Below, one piece after another: positions 9,659 through 22,033 of a stretch of DNA of 64,000 bases. Location: positions 1,302,001 through 1,366,000 of the forward strand of contig NZ_CP066171.1 of the NCBI RefSeq assembly GCF_028867705.1. Direction: 5' to 3'. This DNA is from Thermoleophilum album (GTDB taxonomy: Bacteria; Actinomycetota; Thermoleophilia; Solirubrobacterales; Thermoleophilaceae). Within the stretch, counting starts at the first letter, position 1. Each line of letters starts with the position of its first letter. Position numbers and translations under genes: made by a program. The notes below the pieces were generated by a model that was given only the letters and a program-made list of their open reading frames with translations, had not been told where the DNA came from and searched no databases.

Positions 9659-10624
9659 TCAGTTCGCGGCCGTCAGCTCGTGCACGGCGCGCACGAGCGC
9701 TCCGCGCGCGTCGGGAGCGCGGGCGGGGCGGCCGCCTCTCGTCTCGAGCTCGAGGGCGTGAAGCCGCACCAAAGTGTGCTCCAGCTGCTCGGTCTTGCAG
9801 CGCCGCGCAGCCTGCAGGAGACGTTTCGCGCGCCAGCCGCTGACTGCGAGCGCGCGTGCGACCTCCTGGTCGGTGCGACCACGGTCGAGCAATCGCCTGA
9901 CGGCGAGCAGCTCGCGGGCACGTCTCGCCAGGGCCGGCAGGATGCGTGCCGGGTCCTCGCCGCGAGCCAGCAGATCCTCGGCCAGGTAGGAGGCACGTTC
10001 GCCGCGCCCAAGCGCGATTGCGTCGGCTAGCGACCAAACGCTCTCCTCGCTGTCGTCGGGAGCGAGCGCGCGCACCAGCGTCGCGTCGACGCGACCGTCG
10101 TCCGCGGCGAGAGCGAGCTTTTCCAGTTCGCGCTCGAGACGCATGCGGCTCGGACCGCAGCGGGCTACGAGCTCCTCGGCTGCGTCGGCTGCGAGCGCCA
10201 GTCCGAACTCGCGCGCCCGGGAGCGCAGCCAGGCTGGGAGCTGCCACGGTTTCGGCGCCTCGTAGAGCCGTACTTCGCCGCCCGCTTCGGCGACCGCGCG
10301 CTCGAGCGCTTGCGGCACGCGCGGCGCGCGCGCCAGCAAAAGCACGACGGTGTCCGGCGCAAGCGCGGCGAGAGCCCTGGCGAGTGGCTCGATCTCGGCA
10401 GCCCGGCACTGCTCGAGGCGATCGACGACGACGTAGCGCCGTCCGCCGAGCAGCATCGGCGAGGCGAGCTCGCCGGCCAAAGCGCGCAGGTCCGTCTCCG
10501 CCGCCTGGCGCGTCTCGAGCTCCGCGCCCTCACGCCGCGCACGCTCGTGCAGCCGCCGGCGCCACGCCTCGACGCGCGGTTCGTCGTCGCCGTAGACGAG
10601 ATATGCCGGCTTCAGCTCGGCGAT
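9659..10624 (-). CDS. holA: DNA polymerase III subunit delta (HolA)
   Basis: Clamp-loader delta subunit. Read from an ATC codon at 10624 it has 321 residues beginning (I)AELKPAYLVYGDDEPRVEAW, matching the HolA N-terminal YLLYGE-type motif, with RRYVVVDRLEQ and VVLLLARAPR further on and the C-terminal collar domain (DQEVARALAVSGWRAKRLLQ). No ATG or GTG lies between the comEC stop and the conserved N-terminus. The first ordinary start is TTG at 10480, inside the fold. The comEC TAG is in the same frame three codons before the ATC. Either ATC is used through coupling to comEC, or an upstream CTG. Identity is firm; the start is not. Confidence 0.85.
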   Translation of the reverse strand: MAELKPAYLVYGDDEPRVEAWRRRLHERARREGAELETRQAAETDLRALAGELASPMLLGGRRYVVVDRLEQCRAAEIEPLARALAALAPDTVVLLLARAPRVPQALERAVAEAGGEVRLYEAPKPWQLPAWLRSRAREFGLALAADAAEELVARCGPSRMRLERELEKLALAADDGRVDATLVRALAPDDSEESVWSLADAIALGRGERASYLAEDLLARGEDPARILPALARRARELLAVRRLLDRGRTDQEVARALAVSGWRAKRLLQAARRCKTEQLEHTLVRLHALELETRGGRPARAPDARGALVRAVHELTAAN

Positions 10625-10633
10625 GGCGCGAGG

Positions 10634-13177
10634 CTAGCGGTGGCGGCGGCGCTCGGTTGCGACGTGCAGCCCCTCCGCGTCAGCGGTCACACGCACGGTG
10701 CCGTCGCGGTCGGTGCGAAAGACGGCGGCACCACTCCGCGCTAGTGCCGCCAGTGTGCTCGGTACGGGATGACCGAACGGATTGCGCGCGCCGACCTGGA
10801 CGACGGCGACCTCTGGCCGCGCCCGCGCGAGCACAGCGGGCAGGCCTGGATCGCCGCTGCCGTGGTGCGGCACCTTGAGGACGTCGACGTCCCCGATCGG
10901 CAGCAGACGTAGCGCCTCGCTCTCGGCGTCGCCCGAGGTCAAAAGCACGAGTCGGCCGACGTGCACGAGCGCGACGACCGCGCGCTCGTTGGGGTCGGAC
11001 GGTGATGGCACGCTGGCGGGCCGCGCCCGCGGCCACAGCACGCGGATGTGGATCTTGCCCACGCGCAGTTCGCGGCCTGCGCGAGCGGCGACCACCGCGG
11101 CGCCGCGGCGCCGCGCCAAAGCGACCGCCGCTCGGTACGAGCGGTCGCGGGTGCTGTCGCCACCGTCGAGGATGAGCCGCGGGCGGAGGGTGCGCACCAC
11201 CTCGGCGAGACCACCGTGGTGGTCGCGAGCGGCGTGGCTGGTGGCGACCGCGTCGAGCCGGCTCACGCCCTCGCCGCGCACGCGGCGCGCTACCCGCCCC
11301 TCGGGTGGCCCGGTGTCGAAAAGAACGCTCGCACCGGTGCCGTCTTGCACGAGTACGGCGTCGCCCTGACCGACGTCGAGGAAGGAGATCGTCGGTCGCT
11401 TCGCGGGCTGCGGACCGCGCAGGTAGAGAGCGGTGGCGGCGGTGTAGGCGAGGAGAACGAAGAGCGCGAATAGCGCCACCGGTCGCACCGCCGGGTGGCG
11501 GTCGCCGTGCCGTGGGACCCTGCTCGCGACCGGACGTCCAGCGGCTGCCGCACGAGCGGCGGCGACCGCGACAGCGGCTAACGCGAGCGCGCACAAAGCA
11601 GCCACCGCAGCCGTCGCCGGAGAAACCGCTTCGGCGCCCGGCGGTGGCGTATCGCCGATGGCGAGCTGGGGAACGACGGCGAGGGTCGCGGCGGTCCACT
11701 CGAGATGACCGAGCGCGAGCTCGAGCGGTGGTGCGGCTACCAGCGCCACGGCGTCGGCGAGCGGCGCAGCGGGCGCCCCGAGAGCGCGCAGCTGTCCCGC
11801 AGCCGCTACGACCGTCGCTGCCCACATCGCTGGCGCCACCGCTGGGAGCGCGACGACGTTGGCGGCGAGCGTCGCTAGCGGCAACGATCCGAACGTCGCG
11901 CACGCCACCGGAGCGGTGGCGACGGTCGCAGCGACGGTCATCGCCACGCCGCTGCGCAGACCGCGGCCGAGCGCAGCGACAATCCGCTGTGCCAGCGTCG
12001 ATGCGCGCGCACGCCCTGCGCGCAGCTCGAGCGTTCGTTCTAGCGGGCGGCCAAGCAGGAGCAGGCCCGCTACGGCCGCGAACGACAGCTGCCAGCTCGC
12101 CGAGTGGATCTGGCGGGGGTCGAGCGCCAGCGTCACGCAGGCGGCGAGCGCGAGCGCGTGCAGTCCCGCGCGGGGTCGGGCCGCGGCTTGCGCAACGAGC
12201 GCGGCGATGCCCATCACGGCGGCGCGCTGAAGCGGGGTGCCCGCGCCGGCGAGGGGAACGTAGACGACGATCGCTGCAGCGGCGAGCAGACGCCGCGGCC
12301 ACGTGCGGGGAAAGATCAAGGCCGCCAGCGGCCAGACCAGAGCCACCAGCAAAGCGACGTTCTGCCCCGACACGGCGAGCAGGTGGCCGAGCCCGGTGGC
12401 GCGAAAATCGTCGCGGACGCGCGGGTCGATGCGCTCGTCGAGGCCGAGGATCAAACCGGCCGCAAGCTCGGCGCGGTCGCCCGGCAGCGCCCGCTGGAGC
12501 TCGCGGAGCGCGCGCAGCCGGGCGCGATCCAAGGTGCCCGCGATGCCGCCCCGGCGCCCGATCGCGACGAAGCGCGTCGCGTAGAGCACAGCTGCAGTCC
12601 CTACCGGCAGCTCGCCACCGCGGCCGCCCGTGCGGCGCACACGGCCTTGCACCTCGACGACGGCGCCGAAAGGGAGGTCGCGTGCGCTGTGCGTCGGTGT
12701 GCGCACGACGATCTCGCCGCCGCTGCCGACCCCCGCGACTATACGAGCGCGCATGCGCAGGCCGGGGCCGCTCGGACGGGGCCGCTCAAGCAGAACGACC
12801 CTGCCCCGCCACGCGCCGACGCCGCCGCTCGCGCGGTAAACGTCCAGCTCGCGCACGGGCGCCTCGAGAGTGTCGAGGCGCACGACGCCCACCAGCGCGG
12901 CGAGCGTGCCGGCGGCCGCGACGAGCACAAGCCCCCCGACTCTCGCTGGACGCACGCATGCGGCGAGCATGGCGAGGCTCGCCACCAGCGTCGCTGCCAC
13001 GGCCGCCTGCAACGCGAGACCGAGACCGCTGGCGGCTAACCCTGCGGCAGCCGCGACGAGCGCAAGCGTTCCGAACGGCACTGGGGCGCCGCCGGCCACC
13101 GTCGCGCTAGGAGCCCGCGCGACATCTGCGGCTGTGTCACGCGACGCCGAAGCTCGACCGCGACGAAGCTGCACCAA
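10634..13177 (-). CDS. comEC: ComEC/Rec2 family DNA-uptake channel
   Basis: Inner-membrane channel that passes single-stranded DNA into the cytoplasm during transformation. The 847 residues have the expected three-part layout: N-terminal helices and an OB-like domain (about 20-230), a central competence domain of many helices beginning near DRAELAAGLILGLDERIDP and LLAVSGQNVALL, and a C-terminal metallo-beta-lactamase-like domain from ISFLDVGQGDAVLV. In the MBL domain the metal motif reads SHAARDHHGG, with Ala where a second ligand usually sits. It lies 7 nt from comEA upstream. holA follows in the same frame beyond its TAG. Confidence 0.92.
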   Translation of the reverse strand: MVQLRRGRASASRDTAADVARAPSATVAGGAPVPFGTLALVAAAAGLAASGLGLALQAAVAATLVASLAMLAACVRPARVGGLVLVAAAGTLAALVGVVRLDTLEAPVRELDVYRASGGVGAWRGRVVLLERPRPSGPGLRMRARIVAGVGSGGEIVVRTPTHSARDLPFGAVVEVQGRVRRTGGRGGELPVGTAAVLYATRFVAIGRRGGIAGTLDRARLRALRELQRALPGDRAELAAGLILGLDERIDPRVRDDFRATGLGHLLAVSGQNVALLVALVWPLAALIFPRTWPRRLLAAAAIVVYVPLAGAGTPLQRAAVMGIAALVAQAAARPRAGLHALALAACVTLALDPRQIHSASWQLSFAAVAGLLLLGRPLERTLELRAGRARASTLAQRIVAALGRGLRSGVAMTVAATVATAPVACATFGSLPLATLAANVVALPAVAPAMWAATVVAAAGQLRALGAPAAPLADAVALVAAPPLELALGHLEWTAATLAVVPQLAIGDTPPPGAEAVSPATAAVAALCALALAAVAVAAARAAAAGRPVASRVPRHGDRHPAVRPVALFALFVLLAYTAATALYLRGPQPAKRPTISFLDVGQGDAVLVQDGTGASVLFDTGPPEGRVARRVRGEGVSRLDAVATSHAARDHHGGLAEVVRTLRPRLILDGGDSTRDRSYRAAVALARRRGAAVVAARAGRELRVGKIHIRVLWPRARPASVPSPSDPNERAVVALVHVGRLVLLTSGDAESEALRLLPIGDVDVLKVPHHGSGDPGLPAVLARARPEVAVVQVGARNPFGHPVPSTLAALARSGAAVFRTDRDGTVRVTADAEGLHVATERRRHR

Positions 13178-16089: not shown

Positions 16090-18528
16090 TCAGCGGGCGA
16101 CGAAGTTCACGAGACGACCGGGAACGACGACCGTCTTGACGATCTCGCGCCCGTCGAGACGCGCAGCGAGCTTCGGCGAGCGGCGGGCGATCTCGGCTAG
16201 CTCCTCGCGCGACGCGCCCGACGGTGCCTCGACACGGTCGACGAGCTTCCCGTTTAGTTGAACCACGAGCTCGAAGCTTTCGCTCTCGAGCAACGCCGGG
16301 TCGGCCTGGGGCCACGGCTCCTCCCACACCCACCGCCCGGTCATGAGCTCGTATACCTCGGCGCCTAGATGCGGAGCGAACGGGAAGATCAGCGAGCCGG
16401 CGGTGGCGACCGCGAAACGCAGCTGCGATGCCCCTTCGGCCGATTCGTAGAGCTCGTCCTTGTACCTGTAGATCTCGTTGTCGAGCTCGATCACGGCCGC
16501 GATCGCCGTGTTGAAAGCGAACCGCTCGCAGTCACGGGTGACTTTGTCGATCGCCCAGTGCGCTTTGCGCAAGAGCGGTGTGGGCTCTCCCCGGGGAGCG
16601 TCTGAGGGCGGCGTGCGGTCAGCAACCTCGCGCGCCACGCGCCACAGTCGCCCGAGCTGGCGGTGGATGCCGGCGATGCCCTCGTCCGACCAGTCCGCGT
16701 CCTGTTCAGGCGGCCCGATGTAGAGCACGTAGGTGCGCGCGGTGTCGGCGCCGTAGCGCTCGACGTAGTCGCGCGGGCTGACGACGTTGCCCTTCGACTT
16801 CGACATCTTCGCCCCTTCGCGCGTGACCATCCCCTGCGTGAAGAGGCGCGCGAACGGCTCGCGCACGTCGAGCAACTCCATGTCAGCCAGGGCCTTGCAG
16901 AAGAAACGCGCGTAGAGAAGGTGCAGGATCGCGTGCTCGACGCCGCCGATGTACTGGTCGACCGGCATCCAGCGCCGCAACACCTCGCGGTCGAAGGGGG
17001 CGCGATCGTTGCGCGGGTCGCAGTAGCGCAGGAAGTACCAGGACGAGTCGACGAACGTGTCCATGGTGTCGGTCTCGCGCCGCGCCTCGCCCCCGCAGCG
17101 CGGGCATCTCGTACGCACCCACTCCTCGGCCGCCGCGAGCGGCGAGCGCCCCTTCGGTGCGTAGTCGGAGATGTCGGGAAGTTCGACCGGTAGTTGCTCG
17201 TCCGGCACCGGCATGATCCCGCACTCGCGCTCGCAGTAGACGACCGGTATCGGGCAGCCCCAATAGCGCTGGCGGGAAATCAACCAGTCGCGTAGGCGGT
17301 AGTTGACGGCCCGCCGGCCCTTGCCTTCGCGCTCCAGCCATTCGACGATCCGCTCGTACGCCTCGCGGTTGTGGAGGCCATCGAACGGTCCCGAGTTGAC
17401 CATCGGGCCGTCGCCCGTGTAGGCCTCGCGCTGGACGTCCTCGCCACCCTTGATGACCTCGCGGATCGGAAGTCCGAACTCGCGTGCGAACTCGTGGTCG
17501 CGCTCGTCGTGGGCAGGCACCGCCATGATCGCGCCGGTGCCGTACTCCATCAGCACGTAGTCGGAGACGAACATCGGGATCAGCTCGCCGTTGACCGGGT
17601 TTCGCACGTAGCGGCCAAGCGCGACACCGGTCTTGCGGCGATCGGCGGCCCCGCGCTCTTCGTGCGACGCCTGCATCGCGCGGTTGACGTACTCGCGCAC
17701 TTCGGGCGAGTCGTTGAGCTTGAGCACGTCGGGATGCTCGGGAGCGAGCACAAAAAACGTCGCGCCGAAGAGCGTGTCCGGACGGGTCGTGAAGACCGGG
17801 TAGTCGATGCCGAGCTCCTCGCAGCGAAAGACGACCTCCGCGCCCTCGGAGCGCCCGATCCAGTTGCGCTGCATCGTCTTGACGTGCTCGGGCCAGTCAA
17901 GGTCGTCGAGGTCGCGCAAAAGCTGCTCGGCGTAAGCGGTGATCCGGAAGAACCACTGTTCGAGCTGTCGCGCCTCGACGGGAGTGCCGCACCGTTCGCA
18001 GCGGCCGTCGACGACCTGTTCGTTGGCGAGCACTGTCTGGTCGCGCGGACACCACTTCACCGCCGCCTGGCGGCGGTAGGCGAGGTCGCGCTCGAGGAAA
18101 CGCAGAAACAGCCACTGCGTCCAGCGGTAGTAGCTCGGCTCGTGCGTGCCGAACTCGCGCGACCAGTCGATCGAGACGCCCCAGCGGTGGAACTGCCGGC
18201 GGAACTCGGCGATCGACTTTTCGGTCGATACGCGCGGGTGCTGGCCGGTGCGGATGGCGTGGTTCTCGGCCGGCAGCCCGAAGGCGTCGTAGCCCATCGG
18301 GTGCAGAACGCGGTACCCCTGCCGGCGGCGGAAGTGGGCGACCGCGTCGCCCACCGAATAGCACTTCAGATGCCCGATGTGCGGTTCCCCCGAGGGGTAG
18401 GGGAGCATCTCGAGCACGTACTGCTTCGGACGCGCCTCAGGTTCGTTGGAGACTTCCCACGTGCGCTCGCGCGCCCACAGCTCGCGCCACTTGGCCTCGA
18501 TCGCGTGCGGGTCGTAGCGTGCCTCCAC
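16090..18528 (-). CDS. leuS: Leucyl-tRNA synthetase
   Basis: Class Ia aminoacyl-tRNA synthetase of 812 residues from GTG at 18528. It begins VEARYDPHAIEAKWRELW, matching the LeuRS start. HIGH motif (PSGEPHIGHLKC) near residue 50, zinc-binding-like cysteines (WCPRDQTVLANEQ...CERCG), the CP1 editing domain (TTRPDTLFGATF, PAHDERDHEFA) and KMSKS (MSKSKGNVVS) are all present. The frame is open to a GTG at 18582, but that extension runs through a long hairpin and lacks family similarity, so the inner GTG is preferred. No T-box or attenuator was recognised. Confidence 0.95.
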   Translation of the reverse strand: MEARYDPHAIEAKWRELWARERTWEVSNEPEARPKQYVLEMLPYPSGEPHIGHLKCYSVGDAVAHFRRRQGYRVLHPMGYDAFGLPAENHAIRTGQHPRVSTEKSIAEFRRQFHRWGVSIDWSREFGTHEPSYYRWTQWLFLRFLERDLAYRRQAAVKWCPRDQTVLANEQVVDGRCERCGTPVEARQLEQWFFRITAYAEQLLRDLDDLDWPEHVKTMQRNWIGRSEGAEVVFRCEELGIDYPVFTTRPDTLFGATFFVLAPEHPDVLKLNDSPEVREYVNRAMQASHEERGAADRRKTGVALGRYVRNPVNGELIPMFVSDYVLMEYGTGAIMAVPAHDERDHEFAREFGLPIREVIKGGEDVQREAYTGDGPMVNSGPFDGLHNREAYERIVEWLEREGKGRRAVNYRLRDWLISRQRYWGCPIPVVYCERECGIMPVPDEQLPVELPDISDYAPKGRSPLAAAEEWVRTRCPRCGGEARRETDTMDTFVDSSWYFLRYCDPRNDRAPFDREVLRRWMPVDQYIGGVEHAILHLLYARFFCKALADMELLDVREPFARLFTQGMVTREGAKMSKSKGNVVSPRDYVERYGADTARTYVLYIGPPEQDADWSDEGIAGIHRQLGRLWRVAREVADRTPPSDAPRGEPTPLLRKAHWAIDKVTRDCERFAFNTAIAAVIELDNEIYRYKDELYESAEGASQLRFAVATAGSLIFPFAPHLGAEVYELMTGRWVWEEPWPQADPALLESESFELVVQLNGKLVDRVEAPSGASREELAEIARRSPKLAARLDGREIVKTVVVPGRLVNFVAR

Positions 18529-18548
18529 CGTCGCGCGAAGGGTAACGG

Positions 18549-18594
18549 CGAGCGAGCGCGTGCGGCGCGCAGCGCGCCGCACGCGGCTCGCTCG
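18549..18594 (-). terminator. Long GC hairpin between the membrane-protein gene and leuS
   Basis: CGAGCGAGCGCGTGCGGCGC and its continuation pair with the following GCGCGCCGCACGCG-CTCGCTCG through about 22 bp with one bulged G and almost no loop. It sits between the stop of the upstream minus-strand membrane-protein gene (18610) and the preferred leuS start. It could be a terminator, a leuS leader structure or a processing site. No U tract follows. Confidence 0.5.
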
Positions 18595-18609
18595 TCCGCG
18601 CTGCCCCCC

Positions 18610-20595
18610 TTAAGTGGCCTGGGCCGCGGCGTGCCGAAGCTGCCCCCTGCCGGCTGGTCGCGCCCCGCTGCTCATTCCGCCGCGCGCCTCGAAGCGCCGA
18701 CCGAGCCGCCCTAGGCTAAGTGCAAGCGCCAGCGCCATCGCCGCCCAGGCTCCCAGAACCGTGGCGAGGCCGGCCTGCCACAGCCAGGGCGGAACGCCGC
18801 GTGCCTCGCGCAGGAAGATCCACTCGTCGCCCACGAAGGCGCGGGTGAAGACGGGCGCAGCGGGCAGCGCCGCACCGGCCGCGTCGCGCATCGCCCGCTC
18901 GAGTTGGCTGCGCGTGAAGCTCACCGGTAGCGAGCGCCGCGAGCCGTCGAGCCCAGCGTCGGCCGGCAGGCGCAACGGCACCGCCCCGCGCACCCGACCA
19001 GCGTTCAGGCGTAGCGCCGCCTTCCAGGTTCCGGCCAGAGGCACCGGACTTGTGCTGCGATAGCTGCCGTCCGCCGCTCGCGCCATCGGCGCGACCACAC
19101 GGTCGCGCCGGCCCTGCCAGGCGAGCACGTACAACCAGTTCGGCTGGGCCGCGATCGCCGCTGGGGAGAGACGCGCCACCACGTAAGCCTCTCCACTCGA
19201 TCCTGCGACCGGCCGAAGCTCGACGCGCGCCACGGCGTCGGGCACGGTGCGCAGCGAGGCGGCCACACAGGCGCCCACCGCCAGCGCCGCGGCCCCGGCG
19301 AACCCTGCGCGTGCCAGCGCCGGCCGCGGCAGAGCGCCGCGCAGCGATGCCGCGAACAGCGCTCCTAGCACGCCGCCGGCGCAGCCGCCGAGGAGGGCGA
19401 GCAGGAGCCCCTCCGGCAGCAGCGCGGTTGTCCACGGCAGCGGCATCGCCACGCGCGACCAGCCGTAGCCAGCGGCGAAGCCGGCCGCGGCGCTGACGAC
19501 GCCGGCGACGGCGCCGAACCCAACCGTTCGCGTGGGCGCGGGCACCGCTCGCCGCGAAAGCAGCAGCGACCCGACGACCTCGACAGCTAGTGCCTCGGCG
19601 AAAAAGAGCGGCAACGTCGGCGTGTGCACTCCCATCGCACCAGCAAACAGGCTGGCGCTGCCGCGCACCGCGACGTACGCCGTGGCAGCTCCCAGCGCCG
19701 CGCCACGCCCAACCCACGCGCGCGCCGCCACCAGCACGAACGCTGCGGCGAGCGCGAGCACGAGCGGCTGCCATACCTGGCGGTAGAGCGGAACGCCGTA
19801 GTCGTACTCGGCGAGGAACAGCTCGAGCCCGCAGAGAAGACCTCCGAGTAGCGTCGCTCGCTGGGCAGCGCCGAACCAGCGCGCCCAGCGGCGGGCGCCG
19901 GCCAACGTGGGCGCCACCGCGCGGCTCTCGTCCCGCCCAGCGACGCCAGCTGAAGCGCGCTTGGCGCGTGCTTCCGCGCCCTCCTGGACGAGCACGAGCA
20001 TGCCGACGACGCTCAGCACGCCGAAGAAGAGAAAGACGAAGTGGGTCGGCGACCAGAGCGTTACGTCCTGCCCGTAGATGCGGTGCCAGACGTCGTCGAG
20101 CGAGAGCGCGGCGAGAGCGAAGAGCATCGCGGCGGCCAACAGCGCGCCGCCGAGGGGCCCGCGCCGGCCGCCGCCGGCCAGGACCCAGGCGGGTCCGCGG
20201 TCGCGCTGGTCGGCGGTGCCGAGCGCTAGCACCCCCGCCGCGAACGCGGCGAATATGCCGAACAGCATCGGGTAGTGGGCGGGGTTGCCGAGGGGGCCGG
20301 TGTCGCGCCCTTGGTCGATGTGGTAGCCGATGTCCCACATCCCACCCCACATCGCTGCGAGCAGACCGACGGTCGCAATCGCCACGGGCAGCGCCGACCA
20401 CCCTGGGAGACCGAAGAGACGCCCTACGACACGCCCTGCGACACGCAGCGGCCGCGCTTTCCCGCGCCGGTAGCGCACGCAAGTCGCGATCACGGCTGCG
20501 CTGCCGCCCCAGTAGACAGCCGCCAGGACGGCGAGCTGGTCGAGCGGCGCTCCGCCTGCCGAGGGTGCCGCTTGCGCGAAGAACGCCTCAGCCAC
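18610..20595 (-). CDS. Polytopic membrane protein with extracytoplasmic domain, divergent from a TetR regulator
   Basis: I do not recognise the family. From GTG at 20595, which has a GGAGG ribosome-binding site nine bases upstream, it has 661 residues. The first about 430 residues hold roughly a dozen hydrophobic segments. The motifs MWGGMWDIGYHIDQGRDTG and SLDDVWHRIYGQDVTLWSPTH are rich in His, Asp and Trp and may bind a ligand or metal. A predicted extracytoplasmic beta-rich domain (about 450-610) follows, then one last helix near the C-terminus. It is transcribed away from the TetR gene across an operator-like palindrome, so regulation by that TetR is likely. Function unknown. Confidence 0.75.
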   Translation of the reverse strand: MAEAFFAQAAPSAGGAPLDQLAVLAAVYWGGSAAVIATCVRYRRGKARPLRVAGRVVGRLFGLPGWSALPVAIATVGLLAAMWGGMWDIGYHIDQGRDTGPLGNPAHYPMLFGIFAAFAAGVLALGTADQRDRGPAWVLAGGGRRGPLGGALLAAAMLFALAALSLDDVWHRIYGQDVTLWSPTHFVFLFFGVLSVVGMLVLVQEGAEARAKRASAGVAGRDESRAVAPTLAGARRWARWFGAAQRATLLGGLLCGLELFLAEYDYGVPLYRQVWQPLVLALAAAFVLVAARAWVGRGAALGAATAYVAVRGSASLFAGAMGVHTPTLPLFFAEALAVEVVGSLLLSRRAVPAPTRTVGFGAVAGVVSAAAGFAAGYGWSRVAMPLPWTTALLPEGLLLALLGGCAGGVLGALFAASLRGALPRPALARAGFAGAAALAVGACVAASLRTVPDAVARVELRPVAGSSGEAYVVARLSPAAIAAQPNWLYVLAWQGRRDRVVAPMARAADGSYRSTSPVPLAGTWKAALRLNAGRVRGAVPLRLPADAGLDGSRRSLPVSFTRSQLERAMRDAAGAALPAAPVFTRAFVGDEWIFLREARGVPPWLWQAGLATVLGAWAAMALALALSLGRLGRRFEARGGMSSGARPAGRGQLRHAAAQAT

Positions 20596-20719
20596 TCGCT
20601 TCCACCTCCACGCTCTTTGTGTCTTGTCCGTTTTCCGCCTCGCGGCGCCGGGAGACCCCCCGGACCAGTCTTGCGGCGGGCGCCGATCGTTCGCCACCCA
20701 CCACAGCCGCAAAACGATA

Positions 20720-20743
20720 AGACGCATGTTACAGCATGCGTCT
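20720..20743. promoter_or_regulatory. Perfect 9-bp inverted repeat, putative TetR operator
   Basis: AGACGCATG, a 6-base spacer TTACAG, and CATGCGTCT form a perfect palindrome in the divergent region between the TetR gene (start 20783) and the membrane-protein gene (start 20595). Size and position fit a TetR-family dimer site, so autoregulation and control of the divergent gene are expected. Confidence 0.7.
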
Positions 20744-20782
20744 GAATGTATCCCGACGACTTTGGCTGTACGGTCTCTCTGG

Positions 20783-21475
20783 ATGAACGGAAACGCAGGC
20801 ACCGACAGCTCCGCGACTTCCCCAGGCGCGGAAGAGCTCGTCGATCAGCTGCTCGACGCTCCCGGCAACGCCGAGACGACCGAAGAGCGGATCCTGCAGG
20901 CAGCCGCCGAACAGGTCGAGGACTTCGGTCTCAGACGTTTCACGATCGACGACGTCGCCCGCCGCGTCGGCGTCTCGCGCGTCACCGTCTACCGCTACTT
21001 CCCGAAGAAGAACCGCCTCATCGAGGCGCTCGTCCTGCACGAGATGCGGCGCTTCTTGCGCGCCGTCGAAGAGGCGACACGCTCGTGCGCCACACTCGAG
21101 GAGCGGCTCGTCGAGGGTTTCGTGTTCGGCCTGCTGTACCTCCGCCAGCACCGCCTTCTGCGCCGGCTTTTGCGCAGCGAGCCGGAGCTGATCCTGCCAG
21201 CGCTCACCACCGAGGGCGAGCGCGTCCTGGCCGCCGGCCGCGAGTTCATCGCGCGGTTCGCGCGCGAAGAAGCTGCGGCCGGCCGCCTACCGCTCGACGA
21301 AGAAGAGATCCAAGCGGTTTCCGAGCTTCTGACGCGGGCCGTGCTCTCGTTCGTCGTCACGCCGCACTCGGTGCTCGACCTCGAAACACCCGAGGGGATC
21401 AGGCACTTCGCCGAGCACTACCTGGCAGCGACCCTGCGCGGGATCCTGGCACTGCGCGACTCCCGCGGCTCCTAG
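20783..21475 (+). CDS. TetR/AcrR family transcriptional regulator
   Basis: Regulator of 230 residues. The N-terminal helix-turn-helix spans about residues 30-80: TEERILQAAAEQVEDFGL, then FTIDDVARRVGVSRVTVYRY, then FPKKNRLIEALV. The helical C-terminal ligand domain follows. ATG at 20783 is chosen because the frame's earlier codons run through the operator palindrome. No ribosome-binding site is seen, so a leaderless message is possible. The divergent membrane-protein gene and the palindrome between them indicate its likely target. The inducer is unknown. Confidence 0.9.
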   Translation: MNGNAGTDSSATSPGAEELVDQLLDAPGNAETTEERILQAAAEQVEDFGLRRFTIDDVARRVGVSRVTVYRYFPKKNRLIEALVLHEMRRFLRAVEEATRSCATLEERLVEGFVFGLLYLRQHRLLRRLLRSEPELILPALTTEGERVLAAGREFIARFAREEAAAGRLPLDEEEIQAVSELLTRAVLSFVVTPHSVLDLETPEGIRHFAEHYLAATLRGILALRDSRGS

Positions 21476-21488
21476 CCGCAAGCGAAAG

Positions 21489-21561
21489 TGGAGCTGACGG
21501 GACTCGAACCCGTGACCTCGGCGCTGCCAGCGCCGCGCTCTCCCAGCTGAGCTACAGCCCC
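21489..21561 (-). tRNA. tRNA-Ala (anticodon GGC)
   Basis: Read on the minus strand it folds as a full cloverleaf. The acceptor pair GGGGCTG/CAGCTCC contains one G-U. The D-arm is GCTCAGCTGGGAGAGC, the anticodon stem CGGCG/CGCCG has loop CTGGCAG, and the T-arm contains GGGTTCGAGTCCC. The anticodon GGC reads Ala GCC codons. The discriminator is A and CCA is not encoded. Confidence 0.95.
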
Positions 21562-21572
21562 GTGTGGCGGCG

Positions 21573-21578
21573 AGTTTA
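21573..21578 (-). promoter_or_regulatory. Putative -10 (TAAACT) of tRNA-Ala
   Basis: TAAACT on the minus strand lies about 12 bases upstream of the tRNA-Ala 5' end, the right distance for a -10 element. It resembles the TACACT and TAGACT hexamers before other genes here. Confidence 0.4.
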
Positions 21579-21658
21579 AACGCTCACCGGCCGGTCCGCG
21601 CGCGCAGGGGTGTGGCCGCCGGAGTCCCGGCGGCCACCGTCGCTGCGCCTCGGCCCTG

Positions 21659-22033
21659 TTACTGGGAGGAAGCTTCGCCGTCGCGCGATACCCGCGGGCG
21701 CGGCCTGTGGGCCTCGAGAATCCGCCGCCCGAGCTCGGCGACCTGCTCGTCGCTCAACCGTGTGTGGTCGAACCCGACCTCTTCGAGCTCGCGCCGCACC
21801 GCCTGCACGGTGCGCATTGCGTCGAGGTCGTGACCGAGCTTCGCCAACACGGCGCTCAGGTTCGGATCGTCGAGAGCGGTCTGGCCGTTCGCACTCGCGG
21901 TCAGGAGCCACTGGTGCAGAGCCTCCGCTTGTTCGACGGGGAGCTCCAGCCGCACCGGACCGCGCGCGCTCACGGCCTGCGAGACCTCGTCCACGGCCTG
22001 CTCGCCGACAACGCTCTGGTTGGTATCCGTCAT
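21659..22033 (-). CDS. Hypothetical protein, small and acidic
   Basis: Unrecognised 124-residue soluble protein beginning MTDTNQSVVGEQAVDEVSQA. It looks helical and charged, with no membrane segment, signal peptide or cysteine cluster. It lies downstream of rsfS on the same strand, 35 nt away, and may be the last gene of the obgE-proBA-nadD-rsfS run. Codon use matches its neighbours. I can assign no function. Confidence 0.6.
   Translation of the reverse strand: MTDTNQSVVGEQAVDEVSQAVSARGPVRLELPVEQAEALHQWLLTASANGQTALDDPNLSAVLAKLGHDLDAMRTVQAVRRELEEVGFDHTRLSDEQVAELGRRILEAHRPRPRVSRDGEASSQ

Follow-up and report, generated by a model that had tools for sequence, protein, structure and literature searches.

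A probable AUC start codon for the clamp-loader gene holA in Thermoleophilum album

Results

The comEC-holA junction

The gene for DNA polymerase III subunit delta (holA) of Thermoleophilum album is probably translated from an AUC codon at 10624-10622 of the window, the whole 64,000-nt stretch of DNA that was analysed. This codon would most likely be reached on a leaderless transcript, by reinitiation after the upstream gene comEC, or by both routes. AUC hardly ever starts bacterial proteins, and AUA is equally unusual. The features of the junction are as follows.

10634-13177, minus strand: comEC (ComEC/Rec2) from the ORF list, with its stop TAG at 10636-10634 (Pfam Competence, 3.5e-42)
10631-10636, minus strand: TAGCCT, proposed -10 box of the holA promoter, at a position conserved in relatives; its first three bases are the comEC stop
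10625-10630, minus strand: CGCGCC, a 6-nt spacer read directly from the sequence, which would put the transcription start on the A of ATC; the spacing before GTG in the sister species G029 is the same 6 nt
10622-10624, minus strand: ATC, proposed holA start codon, aligned with the GTG/ATG of relatives and the same in a second strain
10613-10615, minus strand: CTG, codon 4, besides AAG (codon 5) the sole other near-cognate of ATG in the first 24 codons
9659-10624, minus strand: holA, DNA polymerase III subunit delta, 321 aa if ATC is the start (TIGR01128; Pfam DNA_pol3_delta_C)
10478-10480, minus strand: TTG, codon 49, the earliest canonical start of the holA frame; the second strain has CTG here

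Profile comparison placed the holA product within the HolA family (TIGR01128, E 3.4e-56, 190.9 bits with a cut-off of 80), with profile positions 2-302 aligned to residues 8-299 when ATC is numbered as codon 1. The upstream product matches NCBIfam TIGR00361 with an E value of 9.3e-45, but its 152.9 bits are below the cut-off of 190.05. The junction reads CAC CGC TAG CCT CGC GCC ATC GCC GAG CTG AAG CCG in one frame of the minus strand, confirming the original prediction that the HolA N-terminal frame lies directly after the comEC stop. The gap between the stop and ATC is 9 nt, within the range of a termination-reinitiation pair. The accompanying claim that no ATG, GTG or TTG occurs before residue 49 was also correct: canonical codons are absent from the holA frame between the comEC TAG and codon 49, where the TTG at 10480 is followed by an ATG at codon 57. 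A genome search gave a single holA match at E<=0.001, and a second holA copy was rejected on this result.

The same junction in a second strain

The contig BEIR01000010.1 of bacterium HR41 (apparently genome G030) encodes a HolA that is 98% identical to that of T. album, and the DNA is 98.5% identical over 6,967 nt. The comEC-holA junction is identical in HR41, ATC included, although 3 sites in the 200 nt preceding ATC and 19 holA codons distinguish the two strains. Since HR41 was assembled separately, a read error at the junction is very unlikely, and sequencing error was rejected as an explanation. Decay of the gene is given the same very low probability, as the holA frame runs uninterrupted to its stop and the genome search gave no second copy. 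Codons 1-49 differ twice between the strains, both times synonymously, which is too few differences to prove selection after the change.

The two strains also bear on a truncated HolA that would start at the TTG of codon 49 (10480), the first canonical codon in frame. HR41 has CTG at codon 49 and ACG at codon 57, and its first canonical start is the GTG of codon 94. Thus, the truncated start fails in the second strain and was rejected. It would moreover cost roughly 40 positions of the TIGR01128 profile, and we regard it as hardly credible.

Start codons of holA in relatives

Comparisons within the family covered 25 holA loci, from 27 of 31 genomes with a match; the matches in G021 and G001 stop short of the N terminus. 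ATC stands at the start in both T. album strains, whereas the other 23 loci have GTG or ATG, 22 of them at the same distance from a conserved Tyr and one two codons shorter. In the wider order, where 115 of 121 genomes matched holA, 44 further loci were taken and 43 read (L083 could not be parsed); these start at GTG (25) or ATG (18), at the expected place or at most five codons away. The slot occupied by ATC in T. album is therefore an RTG start in all 66 relatives read, and ATC is confined to both strains of one species. The conservation of ATC or ATT at the junction of relatives, which had been put forward as a check, was not found. The same count also weighs against AUC, as none of the 66 relatives starts holA with anything other than RTG.

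Over the 51 aligned codons that precede the TTG, of which three lie ahead of ATC, T. album and the sister species differ 14, 16 and 28 times at the first, second and third codon positions. This excess at third positions is the pattern of coding sequence.

ComEC and holA share one frame in T. album (G000), G030 and G029, which would allow a ComEC-HolA fusion to be made by reading through the TAG, as the original prediction had considered. However, comEC of G029 ends 27 nt before a holA GTG, with a second in-frame TAG between them, so that readthrough there would have to pass two stops ahead of an RTG start. In several other relatives the nearest upstream long ORF, whose identity as comEC is unchecked, lies in a different frame from holA. 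Readthrough is thus disfavoured, and we consider it highly improbable. Elsewhere among the relatives, holA is in several cases preceded at 9-10 nt by the TAG of a long open frame.

A conserved -10 box upstream of holA

The motif TANNNT ends 5-9 nt before the holA start in all 25 family loci and in none at the other 5-nt offsets out to 69 nt. Shuffling of the bases (2000 trials) gave the motif in 0.26 of the 25 loci on average and never in more than 4, a contrast that overstates the independence of the sequences because those of the family are related. In the wider order the motif is found at 5-9 nt in 35 of 43 loci, with 3 matches in total at other offsets. G029 keeps the same TAGCCT although its comEC has already ended 27 nt before the GTG. 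The original prediction overlooked that the comEC TAG is also the beginning of this conserved, putative -10 box. By the box and its fixed spacing holA is a leaderless-type gene, with a predicted transcript start. T. album holA has the box expected of a leaderless gene, TAGCCT 6 nt before ATC; it lacks the ATG or GTG expected at the 5' end, both strains having ATC.

Similar boxes precede other genes. Among 262 gene pairs with aligned canonical starts, a set from which non-canonical starts are excluded by construction, 43 have a box at 5-9 nt compared with 0-12 at the further offsets examined. As judged from these boxes, leaderless-type starts are common in T. album. The 43 boxed genes start at ATG (18), GTG (24) or TTG (1), and the finding that 42 of 43 begin with ATG or GTG counts against AUC.

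The position of the box also helps to separate ATC from the CTG at codon 4, from which HolA would be three residues shorter. CTG is a near-cognate codon and the likely gmk start in G024 and G025 (see below), and little would be lost, since the TIGR01128 match begins only at residue 8. However, this CTG lies 15 nt from the -10 box, beyond the leaderless position, the sister species has CTC at that codon, and CTG was inactive in the leaderless reporters described in the available part of a mycobacterial study (PMC4633059). A start at CTG is thus unlikely. Initiation at ATC, as originally proposed, is supported by the RTG slot in the relatives and by its presence in both strains, with CTG at codon 4 keeping this small share of the probability.

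An apparent AUA start in gmk

Another gene of the T. album genome appears to begin at a near-cognate codon.

G000:C1:1128789-1128241 (L147), minus strand, outside the window: gmk, with an apparent ATA start overlapping the mihF stop (ATAG)

The product scores 218.2 bits with the guanylate kinase profile TIGR03263 (cut-off 160.45), and the preceding gene is mihF, the actinobacterial integration host factor (69.4 bits, cut-off 60). Matches were found in 27 of 31 family genomes and 26 loci were analysed. The locus left out, L173 of G026, has a match split in two with an in-frame TGA, a broken gene or an assembly error. In 9 of the 26 (G000, G030, G029, G023, G024, G025, G006, G008 and G022) the open frame upstream of the conserved block of gmk contains no canonical codon.

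The triplet compared was the last base of mihF followed by the first two bases of its stop. It is in the gmk frame in 15 of the 26 family loci, as ATA in 14 and TTA in one; where it is out of frame, an A precedes the mihF stop in 2 of 11. In sister families an A stands there in 0 of 14 in-frame and 2 of 39 out-of-frame loci (a mihF end was available for 53 of 59). In 13 of the 14 genomes the A of ATA is the last base of an Arg codon, CGA, which accounts for 7.2% of the 10,305 Arg codons sampled from T. album. The 14 genomes cover nine genera, although they are related and hence not independent. G000, G030 and G029 all have the ATA overlapping the mihF stop, and the overlap takes the forms ATAG and ATAA in the family. 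Thus, in 14 of 26 family genomes gmk appears to begin at an AUA that overlaps the mihF stop and whose conservation is frame-specific; on inspection, the others seem to start at ATC (four genomes), CTG (two) or ATG or GTG (six). Since gmk is found in all three phases relative to mihF, one frameshift or readthrough event could not serve all genomes.

TANNNT was absent at 5-9 nt before the proposed gmk start in all 17 usable loci, which are the 20 examined minus G006, G007 and G025, where the codon had been placed wrongly inside the gene.

Some observations argue against a wider use of near-cognate starts. In several of the genomes with ATA a canonical codon lies within mihF, 30-36 codons upstream, and in G021 and G009 a GTG stands one codon ahead of the conserved block. 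In two sister families gmk is ordinary, 55 of 58 loci having their canonical start within 20 codons.

Other possible unusual starts in the genome

About a fifth of the T. album genome (424 kb) was screened with 440 kb of the sister species G029. A first screen flagged 46 of 348 orthologue pairs, some of them in wrong frames, and inspection by eye left only holA, gmk and ylxR with a conserved N terminus and no canonical start. A finer screen flagged 19 of 326 coding pairs and recovered gmk and ylxR; it missed holA because only 8 codons before the first canonical start were examined. Preliminary screens had flagged 47 of 180, 15 of 127 and 33 of 171 pairs, many being wrong frames or canonical starts slightly off; in that of 127 pairs a codon-composition filter removed holA, and most flagged pairs had an ordinary start near the boundary. 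The finer screen also flagged a minus-strand ORF at about 1367872 of G000, outside the window, with a start region resembling the end of a UvrD-like helicase.

G000:C1:1122083-1121799 (L175), minus strand, outside the window: ylxR, with protein-like conservation upstream of its only nearby ATG

The YlxR product scores 66.7 with the Pfam YlxR profile (cut-off 26.9) and follows nusA. The family gave 17 matches, of which 14 were parsed. In ten loci outside this genus and G020, a canonical codon is absent within 59 codons upstream of a conserved Cys motif, and GTA (nine loci) or ATA (one) overlaps a TAG just upstream. In the T. album genus an ATG stands directly before the Cys motif, and protein-like conservation continues upstream of it. 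However, the Pfam profile begins at residue 10 in T. album, adjoining the ATG at residue 11. Because two of the ten loci (G001 and G007) have an in-frame TGA in the match, ylxR is suggestive only as a further gene with an unusual start, and the GTA may be incidental, G being a common third base.

A separate observation from the comparison with G029 concerns the window at 17191-21890 (about 4.7 kb), where identity to the sister species is at least 97% in 500-nt windows, whereas matching T. album and G029 DNA in the sample averages about 80%. The part from 17500 to 21800 is 100% identical to G029, whereas G030, of the same species, is 99% identical over 3,485 nt of this part. The segment looks like the product of recent recombination between species.

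Discussion

Initiation at AUC

The order's leaderless promoter would be kept in T. album, with TAGCCT 6 nt before AUC, so that a short holA mRNA would begin 5'-AUC. A ribosome finishing comEC would stop 9 nt before the same AUC. On either path initiation would proceed without an evident Shine-Dalgarno site and be of the 70S type, leaderless or post-termination, and fMet-tRNA would accept a third-base mismatch at AUC. We infer the start, the transcript 5' end and the 70S route from the sequence, the -10 box and the RTG codons of relatives. An initiator-type tRNA gene with a CAT anticodon, which we take to be such from its features, is present; none of the 30 tRNA loci and 6 more stretches read (46 tRNA genes listed) showed an initiator tRNA with a changed anticodon. 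GTG is the apparent start of the T. album IF3 gene. This lineage seems to tolerate near-cognate starts, because gmk lacks canonical starts and ATA is favoured only in the gmk frame.

Leaderless initiation (PMC9031893) and reinitiation over short gaps (PMC5972666) are both described as 70S processes in the portions of these papers available to us. In the accessible text on mycobacterial reporters, ATC was used as the presumed negative control, neither CTG nor TTG worked at the leaderless position, and ATC with a Shine-Dalgarno site had only low activity (PMC4633059). In vitro, little or no product formed when AUC was paired with initiator anticodons that match it weakly, the AUC/CAU pair not being among those named in the available part of that report (PMC10158994). 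Because the mycobacterial results go against leaderless non-RTG starts, we hold the AUC start, on the leaderless route, the reinitiation route or both, with good but well short of full confidence.

The AUC may be used only by ribosomes that have just left comEC on a putative comEC-holA mRNA, the 5'-AUC leaderless transcript remaining untranslated. The short distance from the comEC stop is consistent with this, as are gmk, which sits at a stop-start junction without such a box, the RTG required for leaderless initiation in mycobacteria as far as that study was available (PMC4633059), and the short-gap 70S reinitiation described in bacteria in the part of the source at hand (PMC5972666). However, conservation of the holA promoter extends across the order and to G029, whose comEC ends farther away, and we put this restricted route at a little below an even chance.

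Translation of holA from AUC, by whichever route, fits a broader picture that we offer tentatively and think somewhat doubtful as a whole. Family ribosomes in 70S mode, at leaderless ends or after a stop, would accept AUA, AUC, CUG and perhaps GUA; gmk would have moved repeatedly to AUA or AUC for a low, possibly regulated output tied to mihF translation, and holA would have followed in this species. Gene finders appear to assume stricter starts than those of this group, and one that admits only ATG, GTG and TTG would give too short a HolA and would misplace gmk or overlook it. If AUC works at a leaderless 5' end, leaderless initiation does not always follow the RTG rule; should AUC and AUA instead be accepted only behind an upstream stop, these genes offer a natural system for studying codon choice by post-termination ribosomes. 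The in-frame ATA of gmk across nine genera is a directly testable case.

Comparison with known systems

Titles and abstracts in the open-access literature, which lacks most subscription papers, gave no report of holA starting at AUC or of gmk starting at AUA. Non-canonical starts have reportedly been found by proteomics in Deinococcus deserti. Escherichia coli infC starts at AUU, and its product rejects such codons, which explains infC control. The proposed holA start is likewise an AUN codon with a third-base mismatch. However, holA encodes a clamp-loader subunit, which has no role in start-codon choice, and unlike a regulated start of the infC type its ATC occurs in only one species, in two strains. 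The infC-like regulation raised in the original prediction is thus unsupported.

Translational coupling is known at overlapping stop-start junctions such as ATGA. Unlike coupled junctions with RTG, the start triplet is ATC in holA or ATA in gmk. The genes resemble these junctions in having the start near an upstream stop, where reinitiation is possible without a Shine-Dalgarno site, according to the part of the source available (PMC5972666).

The proposed holA start is like near-cognate starts found by proteomics, as E. coli N-terminomics gave ATC and ATT start sites, so that such starts do occur in bacteria. However, the single ATC site in the accessible portion of that work is an upstream alternative start (PMC13245402), whereas in holA, a replication gene, ATC would serve as the main start. 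As far as the available text goes, holA resembles the leaderless genes of mycobacteria (PMC4633059) and Deinococcus-Thermus (PMC12340547) in having its -10 box a few nucleotides before the start and no Shine-Dalgarno site. The first codon of those genes is ATG or GTG, whereas that of holA is ATC.
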